A stretch of 64,000 nt of DNA from Chloroflexota bacterium. Lineage in GTDB: Bacteria > Chloroflexota > Anaerolineae > DTLA01. Positions 37,908 to 44,198 of this stretch are shown here, piece by piece. How positions within the stretch are numbered: position 1 is the stretch's first letter; each line of letters opens with the position of its first letter. Made by a program: the position numbers and the translations under genes. The DNA lies in assembly GCA_014360805.1 (NCBI GenBank), contig JACIWU010000002.1:1-64000 (forward strand). The letters are read 5' to 3'. Under the pieces are notes generated by a model. It saw only the letters and a list, made by a program, of their open reading frames with translations, was not told the origin of the DNA and did not search any database.

Positions 37908-37979
37908 AATCTCGGCAAGCCGTAAAGTCTGGCGCGCCATGCGCACGGCGGCTTGCAGATTCTGATTGAAAGAGAGTTT

Positions 37980-39707
37980 ATGAAAGGTACACGAAAAGTC
38001 AGCGGGCAGATGGAATGGAAAAAGGCTGACCTGCATATCCATACCCCCGCTTCGGCCGACTACCAAGAGCCGAAGGTGAGTTATCTGGACATCTTGCGCC
38101 GAGCCGAGGAGCGCGGCCTGGACATCATCGCCTTTACGGATCACAACACCATACGGGGCTACGCCACCATGCTCCAGGAGATAGAGGGCCTGGAACTCCT
38201 GGAGCGGCTGGACCGCTTGCAGCCAGCGGAAAAGGAGCAATTGGCCGAATACCGGCGGCTGCTAAACAAGATTTTGGTGCTGCCGGGCGTGGAGTTCACC
38301 GCCACCCTGGGGTTTCACATCCTGGCCATCTTCCCGGAAGACGCGACCGTGCGGGAGATTGAGCACCTCCTGCTGCGGCTCAATGTCCCCGCCGACAAAT
38401 TGGACGACGGCAGCACCGAGGTCGGCGCGACGTCCGACGTGCTCACGGCGTACCGCGAGATGGCGCGGGCTGGGGCGCTGGTCATCGCTGCGCACGCCAA
38501 TTCCAGCCACGGCGTCGCGATGCAGGGGTTTGACTTCGGCGGGCAGACCAAGATCGCCTATACCCAGGATCCGAACCTGCACGCGCTGGAAGTAACGGAT
38601 CTGGAGAGCGGCAAGCGTCGGAGCACGGCTTCGTTCTACAGCGGCTCCAAGCCCGAGTACCCGCGCCGCATGCACTGCATCCAGGGATCCGACGCGCACT
38701 GCCTGACCACCGACCCGAAGGACAAGCGTTTGACCGGCATCGGCGACCGCATCACGGAGTTGCTGCTGCCCGAGACCACGTTTGCCGCCATCAAGGAGTT
38801 GTTCCTCGGCGACGACTTTGCCCGCACGCGCCCCTACAGGCCCGCCAAGCAGCCTTTTGACCACGTGATGGCGGCCAGGCAGGAGGGGCCGAATATTGTG
38901 CAGTCGTTCTTTGAGTCGGCCTCGCGCCAGGGCGGCAGGCTGCACGCGGTCATCTGCGATGTTGTGGCGTTCGCCAACACCAACGGCGGCACCATCTTCA
39001 TCGGCGTAAGCCCGAACGCGAAGACGCCGCCTGTGGGCGTGGACAAGCCCGAAGAGGTGGCGGCGCTCCTGAAGGCGGAGATCCAGCGCAAGGTTACGCC
39101 GCCGGTGGACGTAACGATAGACACGCTGGAATCGCAGGGCAAGAAGATCATTCGCGTCAGCGTCCCCAGGGGCGCCGACATCCCCTACTCGGTGGAGGGC
39201 ACGAAGATTTACGTGCGGCACGAGTCGGAGACCAGTTTGGCCCTGCGCGACGAGATCATCCAGTTGGTGAAGCGAGCCGCCGAGGAGAAGGGCCAGCCTG
39301 CCCCTGCGCCGGAGCCGGCCCCCCAGGCGGTCTGCGCCGAAGAAGAAGAGCCTCTGTTTCGCATTGAGCCGCCGCGCACCGGCGTGGAAATCGTGGAATC
39401 GGAAGAGCGCAAAGGCACGCTGTACCATTCGCTCAAGGACCTGCGCAACGGCAACGTCGTTACCAACGTAACGCGCAAGTCGGCGCGCAGGCTTTGGCGC
39501 TCGGCCATCACCCAACACGAGGACGCGCCGGTGGCAGGCGACAAGATCACCTGGCTGGGCGACATCGGCCTGTGGAAGGTTTACGGCTCGGGCAGCCGCA
39601 GGCGCTACAACCTGGTGCAGCGCGACCGCACCGGCCGCATCCACTACTACTACGGCGTGAGCGAAGACGGCTTTCACGGCGAGTGGCGGCAGTTCCTCAA
39701 GAAGTAG
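37980..39707 (+). CDS. PHP-domain phosphoesterase fused to an AlbA_2/Schlafen-type domain
   Basis: This is a 575-residue protein. The N-terminal PHP domain (about 11-280) keeps the metal motifs: DLHIHT (17-22), FTDHN (52-56), PGVEF, AAHANSS and GSDAHCL. An AlbA_2 (divergent AAA/Schlafen-type) domain follows at about 310-430, with VVAFANTNGGTIFIGVS and IYVRHESETSLA. A separate conserved-looking C-terminal region (about 470-575, LWRSAITQHEDAP and WKVYGSGSRRRYNLVQ) is unassigned. PHP domains act on phosphodiester or phosphomonoester bonds, and AlbA_2 domains occur in nucleic-acid-binding regulators. The start codon is uncertain: ATG at 38010 is also possible. Confidence 0.75.
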   Translation: MKGTRKVSGQMEWKKADLHIHTPASADYQEPKVSYLDILRRAEERGLDIIAFTDHNTIRGYATMLQEIEGLELLERLDRLQPAEKEQLAEYRRLLNKILVLPGVEFTATLGFHILAIFPEDATVREIEHLLLRLNVPADKLDDGSTEVGATSDVLTAYREMARAGALVIAAHANSSHGVAMQGFDFGGQTKIAYTQDPNLHALEVTDLESGKRRSTASFYSGSKPEYPRRMHCIQGSDAHCLTTDPKDKRLTGIGDRITELLLPETTFAAIKELFLGDDFARTRPYRPAKQPFDHVMAARQEGPNIVQSFFESASRQGGRLHAVICDVVAFANTNGGTIFIGVSPNAKTPPVGVDKPEEVAALLKAEIQRKVTPPVDVTIDTLESQGKKIIRVSVPRGADIPYSVEGTKIYVRHESETSLALRDEIIQLVKRAAEEKGQPAPAPEPAPQAVCAEEEEPLFRIEPPRTGVEIVESEERKGTLYHSLKDLRNGNVVTNVTRKSARRLWRSAITQHEDAPVAGDKITWLGDIGLWKVYGSGSRRRYNLVQRDRTGRIHYYYGVSEDGFHGEWRQFLKK

Positions 39708-39743: not shown

Positions 39744-40277
39744 ATGCGCGTTGGCATCTTGACGGTGAGCGACCGCGCGTCGCGGGGCGAATACGAGGAC
39801 CGCGCGGGGCCTGTCATCGCCGAAATCGTGCGCGCGGACCTGCAGGGCGACGTGGTTGAAACGGCCATCGTGCCCGATGAGCAAGATCGCATCGCCGCGG
39901 TCTTGCGCTGGTGGTGCGATGAGGCCGATTTGGACCTCGTCCTGACGACCGGCGGCACCGGCTTCGCCCCGCGCGACGTAACCCCCGAGGCGACGCGATC
40001 CGTCCTGGAGCGGGAGGCTCCCGGCCTTGCCGAGGCCATGCGCGCCGCCAGCCTTCGCGTTACCCCCCACGCCATGCTGTCGCGCGCCGTGGCCGGCATA
40101 CGGGGCAGGACCCTCATCGTCAATCTCCCTGGCAGCCCCAAGGCCGTCAGGGAGAACCTGGAGACCATCCTGCCCGCGCTGCCTCACGCTATAGAACTGC
40201 TGCGCGAGGTCCAGGGCGCCGACCAGCGCCACCATCACCCTACGGAAGGAGGTGCGAAGCCGACCGAACGATCGTGA
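39744..40277 (+). CDS. mogA: Molybdenum cofactor biosynthesis protein, MogA/MoaB family
   Basis: This 177-residue protein of the MoCF-binding fold has RVGILTVSDRASRGEYEDRAGP at the N-terminus, the molybdopterin-binding motif TTGGTGFAPRDVTPEATR, and LPGSPKAVRENLETILPALPHA near the end. MogA adenylates molybdopterin before metal insertion. MoaB paralogues share these motifs and cannot be excluded, but the GEYEDRAGP phrase favours MogA. It has a 64-base gap before the MFS gene. Confidence 0.87.
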   Translation: MRVGILTVSDRASRGEYEDRAGPVIAEIVRADLQGDVVETAIVPDEQDRIAAVLRWWCDEADLDLVLTTGGTGFAPRDVTPEATRSVLEREAPGLAEAMRAASLRVTPHAMLSRAVAGIRGRTLIVNLPGSPKAVRENLETILPALPHAIELLREVQGADQRHHHPTEGGAKPTERS

Positions 40278-40340: not shown

Positions 40341-41627
40341 ATGAAATCCAGGTACCGGTGGTTTGTCGTTTTGATGTTCTTCTTCTTCATGCTGCTTCAC
40401 CAAGCGGACCGTCTGCTCATCGGCCCCCTGACCACGCCCATCATGGAGGAGTTCCGCATTGACGAGGCCAAGATGGGCCTGGTATCCAGTTTCGCCATCC
40501 TGGTTGCGGCGATCATGTACCCCGTGTGGGGATACCTGTACGACCGCTACGCGCGCGCCAAACTCATCGCGCTGGCCTCGTTCATCTGGGGCTCCACCAC
40601 GTGGCTCAACGCGATTGCCCCCAACTACACGACCTTCCTCATCACGCGCTCGTCCACGGGCATTGACGACTCCAGTTACCCGGGCATCTACAGCCTGCTG
40701 GCCGACTATTTCGGGCCGAACATACGGGGCAAAGTATACGGCTTGCTGCAGACGGCCATGCCTTTGGGCTACATGCTGGGGATGGTCCTGGCCAGCATGT
40801 TGCGGGATACCCTGGGCTGGCGCAATGTGTTTATCATCACGGGTAGCCTGGGTATCTTGCTCGCCATTGTGATCTTCTTTGGGCTTCGCGAGCCTCCGCG
40901 AGGCAAGGCCGAGCCGGAGATGGCTGCGTTTGAGGAGATCCCGTCGTTCCACTTTGACCGCAGAGTTGCCCTGGGGTTGTTCCGTCGCAAGTCGCTCCTC
41001 TTCCTGTTCGCGCAGGGATTCTTCGGCGTATTCCCGTGGCAGGTCATCACGTTCTGGTTCTTCCGCTTCCTGGAGACAGAGCGCGGCTTTTCCACGGGCG
41101 AGACGACCAGCATCATGATGATCGCGATTCTGGCCCTATCGGCGGGGTACTTTGTGGGCGGGAGCATCGGCGATTTCTTCTTCAAGCGCGACTACAGGGG
41201 GCGCGCGCTGACAGGGGCCACGGGCGTGCTCCTGGGCGCGATTCTGCTCACCATCACGCTGCGCATCCCGGCGGGCCAACTCCTTCCGTTCATGATCTTC
41301 ATGTGCCTGACGGGCGTGACCATGTCCATCGCCGCGCCCAATGTCCAGGCCACCATCCACGACGTGGCCGAGCCGGAAGTCCGTAGCACGGCGCAGGCCA
41401 CGCTGAGTTTCATTGAGAACATCGGCTCGGCCATCGCGCCGGCGCTGGCGGGGTACATCGCCGTGCGGTCGTCGCTGGGCAACGCTATCCTGACCATCTG
41501 CGTCAGCACGTGGCTGGTGTGCGCGTTCCTGTTCCTGGGCGTGGCGCGTTACATCCGGCAGGACGCCGAGCGGCTGCGTCGCGTCATGCGCGAGCGCGCA
41601 GAGGCGACGGCCGCTGCCGCGGAGTAG
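40341..41627 (+). CDS. MFS transporter, spinster-like
   Basis: This 428-residue protein has 12 membrane segments. The segment-2/3 signature is GYLYDRYARAKLIAL, and the SSYPGIYSLLADYFGPNIRGKVYGLL stretch resembles the spinster (SPNS)-type branch, whose known members move lipids or amphipathic organic anions. The substrate here is unknown. The pseudo-nitrilase gene begins 4 bases after its stop using GTG, so the transporter and the nitrilase pair are one translational unit. The substrate may therefore be a nitrile, an amide or a related amine compound. Confidence 0.85.
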   Translation: MKSRYRWFVVLMFFFFMLLHQADRLLIGPLTTPIMEEFRIDEAKMGLVSSFAILVAAIMYPVWGYLYDRYARAKLIALASFIWGSTTWLNAIAPNYTTFLITRSSTGIDDSSYPGIYSLLADYFGPNIRGKVYGLLQTAMPLGYMLGMVLASMLRDTLGWRNVFIITGSLGILLAIVIFFGLREPPRGKAEPEMAAFEEIPSFHFDRRVALGLFRRKSLLFLFAQGFFGVFPWQVITFWFFRFLETERGFSTGETTSIMMIAILALSAGYFVGGSIGDFFFKRDYRGRALTGATGVLLGAILLTITLRIPAGQLLPFMIFMCLTGVTMSIAAPNVQATIHDVAEPEVRSTAQATLSFIENIGSAIAPALAGYIAVRSSLGNAILTICVSTWLVCAFLFLGVARYIRQDAERLRRVMRERAEATAAAAE

Positions 41628-41631
41628 GGGA

Positions 41632-42450
41632 GTGGCTTCGGAAACCCGTGCGGTTGTCGCCGCGCTGCAAGGGCGGCAGTTTACGTTCGCGTCGGAGCGG
41701 GCCTGGGCCGCGTACTGGGAGCAGGCCCTTGCGGGTGCTGCGGAGCGCGGCGCGCGCCTGGCCGTCCTGTCGGGAAGCCCCGGCTGGGACGAGGTGTGGG
41801 AGGGGCCAGTGGCCGAGGCGGGCCAACTGGCGCGGCGCTACGGGCTGTACCTGGTGGCCGACATCGGCCCGCAGCGCGACGAGGACGGGCGGGTCTTCCC
41901 CTGCCTGCACGTCTTTGCCGACGACGGCAGTCTCGTCGGGGCGCAGCGGCAGATTCACCTGAGCCGCGAAGACCGGGCCCTGATGTACTCCGCGGGGGAG
42001 GAACTCCACGTTGTTGATTCCCCTGCTGGGGCGCTGGGGCTCGTGGTCGGCGCGGACGTGCGGGTGCCCGAGGTGAGCCGCGCCCTGACACTGCTGGGCG
42101 CCGAGGTGCTCGTACATGTGGGCGCGCTGCGCGAACGGTCGGAGGGGGCGTGGCTGGCGCGGCTGTGGCGCGAGGTGCAGGCCAATCAGACCTTCGGCAT
42201 TGAGGCGTATCCCGTGGGCGCGGGGCTGGTGGGGCGGTCCTGCGTGCTGGCGCCGGTGGAGATGACCCCCGGCGGGAGGGGCGTCGTGGCCTGCGCCGAA
42301 AGCGCCGACGCCGAGGCCGTTGTCGCCGCCGAACTGGACTTCGGGGCGCGCGCGGCCCTCACCGCTCGCTACGACATCCTGGCCGAGATGAACCTGCCGC
42401 TGTACCGGCAACAACTGCTGTCGCTGTACCGCAAGGGGTCGCTGCCATGA
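41632..42450 (+). CDS. Degenerate nitrilase-superfamily protein lacking the catalytic triad
   Basis: This 272-residue protein aligns along the nitrilase fold: AVVAALQGRQFTF, a QRQIHLSRED loop, and GLVVGADVRVPEVSRALTLLGAEVL. All three catalytic positions are lost. The Glu of the usual FPE is Gly48, the Lys of RKIHL is Gln107, and the Cys before the YDxRFPE-type motif is Gly140. It cannot do the usual amide or nitrile hydrolysis. It starts with GTG 4 bases after the MFS gene, with GGAG just upstream, and its end overlaps the intact nitrilase gene as ATGA. A structural or regulatory partner role is plausible. Confidence 0.75.
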   Translation: MASETRAVVAALQGRQFTFASERAWAAYWEQALAGAAERGARLAVLSGSPGWDEVWEGPVAEAGQLARRYGLYLVADIGPQRDEDGRVFPCLHVFADDGSLVGAQRQIHLSREDRALMYSAGEELHVVDSPAGALGLVVGADVRVPEVSRALTLLGAEVLVHVGALRERSEGAWLARLWREVQANQTFGIEAYPVGAGLVGRSCVLAPVEMTPGGRGVVACAESADAEAVVAAELDFGARAALTARYDILAEMNLPLYRQQLLSLYRKGSLP

Positions 42451-43499
42451 CCGCCTGGCGCGACGCGGTGATGTTCCACTTGGCGCGGGCGCTGGTACGC
42501 TGGCGGGCCGGGTTGAGCGCTGCCCAGGGCTGGCTGGCCCGCGCCTCGTATCCCCAGGCGTTGCCGCCCGACGAGGACAGGGCGCGCGTGCGCGTCGCCG
42601 CTGTGCAGTTTCCAGCGCGCCTCTTCGCGTCGCCCGCCGACTACGCGCGGGAATGCCACGCCTGGACGCTGCGGGCCGTGGAGGCCGGCGCGCAACTGGT
42701 GGTGTTCCCCGAACTGGTGGGGTTCGTGCCGCTGCTGGGGCTGGTGCCCGGCATTGAGGCCCAGGCGGCCCGCGCAACTGCGGGGGCGGGCGAGGCGGGC
42801 GCGCTGGCGGCGGTAACCCGTCTCCTGGCTCCATCGGCCACGCGGGTGTACCGGTTCACGTTCCAGAACCTGTCGCGCCGCTTCCGCGTCCACATCGTGG
42901 CGGGTAGCGCCATCGCCGCGGGGAGCGACGGAACGCTGCGCAACACGGCCTACCTGTTCGGCCCCGACGGGTTTGAGATGGGCCACCAGCCGAAGGCGCA
43001 CTTCTATGGCCAGGAGTTTCACATGGGCCTGACGCGCGGCGGGTTCATCCAGGTGTACGATACGCCCGTGGGCAAACTGGCGATGCCCGTGTGCATGGAC
43101 TACACCTACCCGGAGACGGCGCGCATTGCGTATCTCCTGGGCGCGGAGATTCTGCTGAACCCGTCGGCGGACATCAACGCGGACTACAACTGGCACTACC
43201 AGTTGCGCGGCGTGTGGAGCAGGGTGCAGGAGTCGCCGTGCTACGGCGTGCATGCGATGATGGTGGGCGACGTCCTAGGGATGCCGTTCCGCGGGCAGTC
43301 GGCCATCGTGGGGCCGGTGGGACTGGTGGGCGGGGATGGGATTTTGGCCCGCGCAGAGCCTTGCGACCAGGGCGACGTGGTGGTGGCCGACATGGATTTG
43401 GCGGCCCTTCGCGAGTTCCGCCGCGACCTGCAGGTGGAACCGCGCTACGATTGGTGCGCCCGCCAGTTGGGCGCGATTTGGGAGCGGCGTTCTTTGTAG
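42447..43499 (+). CDS. Carbon-nitrogen hydrolase (nitrilase superfamily)
   Basis: This 350-residue enzyme keeps the Glu-Lys-Cys triad: Glu89 in VVFPELVGF, Lys183 in QPKAHFYGQE and Cys216 in PVCMDYTYPETAR. It cuts a non-peptide C-N bond in an amide, nitrile or carbamoyl compound. The long N-terminal region before the core (residues 1-47) is unusual. It overlaps the pseudo-nitrilase gene as ATGA, consistent with a stoichiometric partner. Its TAG stop (43497-43499) lies inside the GTAG head of a palindromic repeat. Confidence 0.85.
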   Translation: MTAWRDAVMFHLARALVRWRAGLSAAQGWLARASYPQALPPDEDRARVRVAAVQFPARLFASPADYARECHAWTLRAVEAGAQLVVFPELVGFVPLLGLVPGIEAQAARATAGAGEAGALAAVTRLLAPSATRVYRFTFQNLSRRFRVHIVAGSAIAAGSDGTLRNTAYLFGPDGFEMGHQPKAHFYGQEFHMGLTRGGFIQVYDTPVGKLAMPVCMDYTYPETARIAYLLGAEILLNPSADINADYNWHYQLRGVWSRVQESPCYGVHAMMVGDVLGMPFRGQSAIVGPVGLVGGDGILARAEPCDQGDVVVADMDLAALREFRRDLQVEPRYDWCARQLGAIWERRSL

Positions 43500-43537
43500 G
43501 GCAAATTGCCAATTTGTCCTGCGGACAGTTTCCCTAC
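43496..43537. repeat. GTAG-headed palindrome upstream of the RAYT gene
   Basis: This 42-bp element runs from GTAGGG to CCCTAC. It contains the hairpin GGGCAAATT-GCC-AATTTGTCC (one G-T pair) and then TGTCC-TGC-GGACA. The first GTAG supplies the stop codon of the nitrilase gene. Together with the downstream cluster it brackets the transposase gene. Confidence 0.75.
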
Positions 43538-43544
43538 GGGAGCC

Positions 43545-44198
43545 ATGGAGGGGATTGTGGGACGCCTGGGCTGGAAATCATTCTACCGACGGAACTTGCC
43601 GCATATACAGTTGCCCGGTTGCACGTTGTTTGTTACTTTTCGCCTGGCTGGCTCTATTCCGGCAGAAGCGGCGCAAAGCCTGATCGCGGAAGGACGGCGT
43701 GTTGACGCGGCTCTCGCGCGAATTGCGGACTTGGGCGAACGCGAGAGGCGGCGCAGCCTGGAGCAACGTCGGCTATTCGGAAAATGGGATGCGGCGCTGG
43801 ACACCGCCGCTGTTGGGCCGCTGTGGCTTGGTGATCCGGGGATAGCCGCATTGATGGCTGATTGTCTCCAATACAGAGATGGGCGGGTATACGATCTGGA
43901 TGCCTACTGCATCATGCCGAATCACGTGCATTTGGTATGTACGCCGCTGGTCAAGGAAGGGGACAACTATTACTCCATATCCAGCATTATGCACTCCCTC
44001 AAAGGTTACGTGGCGCGCCAAGCCAATGTACTACTGGGACGTGAAGGGGCATTTTGGCAGCACGAGAATTATGACCACGTGGTGCGCGACGAAGGGGAGT
44101 GGCAGCGTATTGTGTATTACGTGCTGGACAACCCTGTGAAGGCGGGCCTGGTGCAGACTTGGCGCGATTGGAAATGGAGTTATTGCAAGCAGTTGTAG
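43545..44198 (+). CDS. REP-associated tyrosine transposase (RAYT, Y1 HUH family)
   Basis: This 217-residue single-strand DNA transposase of the IS200/IS605-related Y1 family opens with GWKSFYRRNLPHIQLPGCTLFVTFRL, the usual RAYT start. The HUH metal motif is His127-x-His129 in MPNHVHL. Tyr176 in ENYDHVVRDE is the probable nucleophile, and the tail YVLDNPVKAGLV is typical. RAYTs recognise GTAG-type tetranucleotides next to REP hairpins, and this gene is bracketed by such elements. It is a single gene without insertion-sequence ends. Its stop codon lies inside the first downstream GTAG. Confidence 0.9.
   Translation: MEGIVGRLGWKSFYRRNLPHIQLPGCTLFVTFRLAGSIPAEAAQSLIAEGRRVDAALARIADLGERERRRSLEQRRLFGKWDAALDTAAVGPLWLGDPGIAALMADCLQYRDGRVYDLDAYCIMPNHVHLVCTPLVKEGDNYYSISSIMHSLKGYVARQANVLLGREGAFWQHENYDHVVRDEGEWQRIVYYVLDNPVKAGLVQTWRDWKWSYCKQL

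Follow-up and report, generated by a model that had tools for sequence, protein, structure and literature searches.

An apparently non-catalytic nitrilase paralogue encoded next to an intact one in Chloroflexota: candidate subunits of a heteromeric hydrolase

The locus and its two nitrilase-superfamily proteins

The window, i.e. the whole 64,000-nucleotide stretch of a Chloroflexota contig (JACIWU010000002.1) that was analysed, has Chloroflexi and Anaerolineae MAGs as its nearest named relatives. It contains two overlapping genes of the nitrilase superfamily, referred to as A and B, which follow an MFS transporter gene in an operon layout (MFS-A-B). The features of this region are as follows:

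37953..39707, + strand: PHP + SLFN_AlbA_2 protein (Pfam; the PHP match is slightly below its cut-off)
39744..40277, + strand: MogA-type molybdopterin adenylyltransferase (NCBIfam PRK09417, 176 bits versus a cut-off of 158)
40341..41627, + strand: MFS transporter (MFS_1, Pfam 1.7e-49), ending 4 bp upstream of A
41632..42450, + strand: gene A, pseudo-nitrilase subunit (ORF, 272 aa, GTG start, TGA stop)
41773..41775, + strand: A Gly48 codon, at the position of the first catalytic Glu (B Glu89), by alignment
41950..41952, + strand: A Gln107 codon, at the position of the catalytic Lys (B Lys183), by alignment
42049..42051, + strand: A Gly140 codon, at the position of the catalytic Cys (B Cys216), by alignment
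42067..42192, + strand: A helices alpha5 and alpha6, presumed dimer surface, residues 146-187 including LWREVQANQT (conservation, predicted helices)
42447..42450, + strand: 4-bp overlap (ATGA) between the stop codon of A and the start codon of B (sequence)
42447..43499, + strand: gene B, nitrilase-superfamily hydrolase with intact Glu-Lys-Glu-Cys (ORF, 350 aa, ATG start)
42711-42713, + strand: B Glu89 codon (sequence and alignment)
42993-42995, + strand: B Lys183 codon (sequence and alignment)
43092..43094, + strand: B Cys216 codon, nucleophile (sequence and alignment)

An ORF for a Y1 (IS200-like) transposase occupies positions 43506-44198 and starts 7 bp past the end of B.

Both proteins match the Pfam CN_hydrolase profile (cut-off 23.2 bits), A with 66.5 bits and B with 84.6 bits, and they are paralogues of each other (30% identity, E 6e-22). 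The AlphaFold2 model of A (pLDDT 90, pTM 0.90) has the full nitrilase fold, and its best fold match in the PDB is mouse Nit2 (2w1v, TM 0.80), which bears out the fold assigned to this protein in the initial annotation. That annotation had also read Gly48, Gln107 and Gly140 of A as replacements of the catalytic triad. In the alignment with B and in those of the orthologue pairs, these residues indeed stand opposite Glu89, Lys183 and Cys216 of B. Protein A therefore lacks the Glu-Lys-Cys set of an active enzyme, and Lys and Cys are absent in all A orthologues. None of 24 copies has Cys at the nucleophile position (Gly in 21; Asp, Asn and Glu in one each), and the Lys position is taken by Gln in 22 of the 23 readable copies. 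At the first Glu position Ala, Asn, Gly, His or Gln was found in 21 copies and Glu in two (G397 and G409), both of them orthologues from a different class of Chloroflexota. Most copies carry an acid at the position of the second Glu, the fourth catalytic residue (17 Glu, 4 Asp). Because the A proteins of G397 and G409 still have Glu, the loss of Lys and Cys is, on these alignments, a trait of the A family, the loss of Glu being a later or separate event. Of the triad losses, those of Cys and Lys are conserved and that of Glu is not.

Judging from the model, an alignment error is very unlikely as the source of the triad loss in A. Misalignment of the triad was ruled out by the orthologue alignments and the confident fold model, and since this model matches nitrilase structures, a realignment that restores the triad is not to be expected. 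Neither the alignments nor the model yielded such a restoration, which had been named at the outset as fatal to the idea of a dead paralogue.

Protein B carries Glu89, Lys183, Glu190 and Cys216, i.e. the residues of an active enzyme, and the alignment agrees with the earlier statement that its triad is retained. Cys and Lys are each retained by 23 of 24 B proteins, and Glu by 23 of 23. An N-terminal extension of ~45 aa is specific to B, and the nearest sequence relatives of B are Pyrococcus 3ivz (2e-16) and PH0642 (1j31). All substrate-specific NCBIfam equivalogs scored far under their cut-offs (best 68 versus 500 bits), and B was therefore given no substrate branch; its score against the Nit6803 nitrilase model (21 bits versus a cut-off of 503) also keeps it out of the true nitrilase branch.

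Two B copies deviate from this pattern. The B protein of G117 (L110:2016-3149) has Gly in place of Cys, leaving neither subunit of this genome with a nucleophile, and that of G185 (L108:4113-5285) has Gln for the catalytic Lys. Because of these two copies, catalysis does not seem to be retained in every lineage, and the A-B pair may persist there without it.

Occurrence, gene order and selection

A-B pairs were found in 23 Chloroflexota genomes of two classes and on one MAG contig labelled Armatimonadetes (L050). The first number comes from whole-genome searches: 21 of these genomes belong to the class of the window, of which 396 were searched, and two to a different class of Chloroflexota. 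Separate searches for A-type and B-type proteins returned the same 21 of the 396 genomes, and A without B was found in none of the 396. The A match of G031 is weak and broken, in an assembly with ambiguous bases, while in G001 a contig end divides the pair.

The 4-bp ATGA overlap pointed out in the initial annotation is present in the sequence, and an overlap of 4 bp recurs in seven other loci, the eight belonging to distant families (the window, G002, G024, G059, G133, G256, G154 and L050). In G244 B starts immediately after the A stop, and in G030 and G063 the overlap is 14 bp. In three genomes A and B are not adjacent; the gene that separates them encodes a methyltransferase in G308, an uncharacterised protein in G183 and a beta-CASP metallo-beta-lactamase (RNase-type) in G216 (L106:4813-6231). 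The last overlaps A by 1 bp and B by 4 bp. As A and B are separated in these three genomes, the equal stoichiometry via translational coupling that had been proposed from the overlap is not universal.

Of 24 loci, 14 have an MFS gene no farther than ~5 kb from A-B, and these genes are of several MFS types. The type present in the window occurs in the order MogA-MFS-A in five genomes, with B following directly in G002 and G097, a contig end after A in G001 and the order MogA-MFS-A-(MBL RNase)-B in G216. The suggested link with a transporter is consequently only partly upheld, and handling of the substrate or product by the MFS protein is plausible but not universal. A MogA gene accompanies A in 11 of the 24 loci, a Lon gene in 6. 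The PHP + SLFN_AlbA_2 protein is encoded near the pair in 9 loci (the window, L031, L032, L033, L040, L041, L101, L104 and L111), often adjoining Lon. Since the source genome encodes two further MoCF_biosynth proteins besides MogA, we attach no functional meaning to the adjacency of this gene; MogA, Lon and PHP may simply share an ancient gene neighbourhood without forming a pathway.

Within the genus, A has a dN/dS of 0.16-0.22 and B one of 0.15-0.19, while the neighbouring MFS and MogA genes have values of 0.08-0.11 and 0.04-0.12, respectively. The inactive paralogue is under purifying selection on a par with B and is always accompanied by the active one. Its absence or random decay in relatives, which would have told against a function, was not observed, as A co-occurs with B and has a similar dN/dS. 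The pairwise distances of A are correlated with those of B (r 0.89; 0.92 on genomes with MogA nearby), versus 0.71-0.74 in the comparisons with MogA; this is supporting evidence only, as homologues of similar rate partly correlate anyway.

Dimer surface, natural fusion and the S family

Members of the nitrilase superfamily dimerise via the so-called A surface, formed by alpha5 and alpha6; mutations in this surface abolish activity, and the catalytic Cys is presumably held in place by alpha5 (PMC4700190, PMC4981594). In the model of protein A the corresponding predicted helices span residues 146-154 and 171-185. Conservation of alpha5 is 0.87 in A, the highest of any region of this protein, versus 0.79 in B and 0.81 in S, a family of single proteins described below. 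For alpha6 the values are 0.75 in A and 0.70 in B, and A outside alpha5 spans 0.47-0.75. Two alpha6 residues of A, Trp179 and Arg180, are present in 24 of 24 A proteins, whereas B and S differ or vary at these positions. Such a pattern would be expected of a surface that has become specialised for heterodimer formation, although the conservation of alpha5 and alpha6 is partly a general constraint of the superfamily, as the value for alpha5 of S indicates.

In G090 (L031), a Ser-rich linker joins A and B into a single protein of 680 aa. The AlphaFold2 model of this fusion has a pTM of 0.81 over 680 residues, a score that is silent on which faces touch. Two loosely arranged domains of ~300 residues would be expected to score much lower, and the halves are therefore predicted to have a fixed arrangement within one compact particle. 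The alignment used for the fusion was a balanced set of 12 rows, in which L104 was read through the A stop codon; in a larger joint alignment the homology of A and B had put the rows of both on one half of the fusion. This fusion is a single case and comes from a MAG with ~9% contamination.

The S family comprises single proteins with the CN_hydrolase fold, 385-750 aa long, which are encoded in many Anaerolineae-level genomes (L010-L030, L072-L081; e.g. L043:7183-8724). Like A, they have Gly at the catalytic Cys position (21 of 21 checked), and many of them keep Glu and Lys. Unlike A, they form a separate clade, several end in a low-complexity C-terminal tail, no partner gene was seen, and five S loci had no conserved neighbours. 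A, B and S are each a clade (SH-aLRT 99), and together they are split from the ordinary nitrilases of the same phylum (SH-aLRT 96; midpoint root). The AU test rejected neither A as sister to B nor A as sister to S (p 0.54 and 0.53). As this leaves the branching order undecided, the Cys may have been lost once or twice.

A putative heteromeric hydrolase and its known counterparts

Based on our observations, we suggest that A and B are probably the two subunits of one heteromeric nitrilase-superfamily hydrolase, most likely an A:B heterodimer in which A is an obligate, non-catalytic partner that would hold and perhaps regulate the active site of B. The original idea of a dead paralogue acting as a heteromeric partner has gained support from the fusion, the co-occurrence, the gene overlap and the conservation of the dimer surface. 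From these data we infer a physical A:B complex and, likewise, the activation of B, the ligand, the substrate and the transport, as well as a role for A that is regulatory rather than purely structural. After duplication, A would have lost the nucleophile and Lys while retaining the fold and the alpha5/alpha6 surface, and would pair with B over this surface, where homodimeric relatives pair with themselves. In known nitrilases, residues of this surface contribute to the placement of the catalytic Cys, and the active site of B is therefore probably completed or tuned by A. The remodelled pocket of A, with its near-invariant Gln and an acid at the second Glu position, may accommodate a regulatory ligand that is not cleaved. 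Hydrolysis of an amide, carbamoyl or nitrile compound would be the task of B, and the MFS permease, often encoded in the same operon, would move the substrate or the product.

The pocket of A also admits another reading, in which A, although co-expressed with B, works independently of it as a homodimer and binds the same ligand, as a sensor or carrier, without hydrolysing it. The predicted fold of A is complete, the remodelled pocket (Gln107, Asp142, Glu147 and the acid at the second Glu position) is conserved, and the partnerless S family, with its Gly for Cys, indicates that Cys-less folds can probably act alone. However, a lone binder fits poorly with the fact that A never occurs without B in 396 genomes, with the G090 fusion, and with Trp179 and Arg180 of alpha6, which are unlike both B and S; we therefore regard it as unlikely. 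Somewhat less likely still is a heteromer performing acyl transfer, in which a thio-acyl intermediate on B would be passed to an acceptor whose site is shaped by A. Some members of the superfamily are acyltransferases, e.g. Lnt (PMC5500890), and the neighbouring genes include MogA and, in a single genome, a methyltransferase; but no acceptor-specific domain was seen, and the neighbours vary among lineages.

Loss of the whole triad in the window copy and the broken A copy of G031 might suggest that A is a decaying pseudogene retained only through its linkage to B. This is contradicted by the low dN/dS of A, by reading frames that are intact across distant families and by the fixation of Gln at the Lys position, which make such decay extremely improbable; dN/dS and the orthologues rule out the pseudogene reading.

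A more specific form of the heteromer proposal, which we put forward only tentatively and consider rather less probable than not, is that A acts as an allosteric ligand sensor switching live B on, and belongs to a wider Chloroflexota set of Cys-less proteins (A and S) in non-catalytic roles. If the heteromer proposal is true, the A-B pair would constitute a simple, operon-encoded model of how a dead paralogue can take the place of one subunit in a dimer and control the other, and would account for one class of Cys-less 'CN hydrolases' annotated as enzymes by family models. It would also be an easy test system, as both proteins are small and seem to be soluble and a natural fusion exists.

Homodimeric enzymes of the amidase/nitrilase superfamily are homomeric and have the full triad in each subunit. 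To our knowledge, nearly all described enzymes of the superfamily consist of identical subunits. Pyrococcus 3ivz, PH0642 (1j31) and mouse Nit2 (2w1v) share the fold of A and B, but A is without Lys and Cys. A literature search that covered few subscription papers found no bacterial live/dead nitrilase pair, which is weak evidence of absence, and no paper joining the nitrilase superfamily or carbon-nitrogen hydrolases with the term pseudoenzyme.

Analogous pairs are known from eukaryotes. In grasses, nitrilase activity arises from a complex of two paralogous subunits, NIT4A and NIT4B (PMC3537687, PMC5154151). These are plant proteins of the true nitrilase branch, and the likeness to A-B drawn here concerns the complex of paralogues. 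In trypanosomes, AdoMetDC with its prozyme and deoxyhypusine synthase are cases in which a dead paralogue activates the live enzyme ~1000-fold via a heteromer (PMC5201418, PMC3663545); their folds are unrelated to nitrilase, and for A-B such activation is only proposed. The kind of system is thus already known from the heteromeric NIT4 of plants and the prozyme of trypanosomes, and the bacterial A-B pair would be a further form of it.
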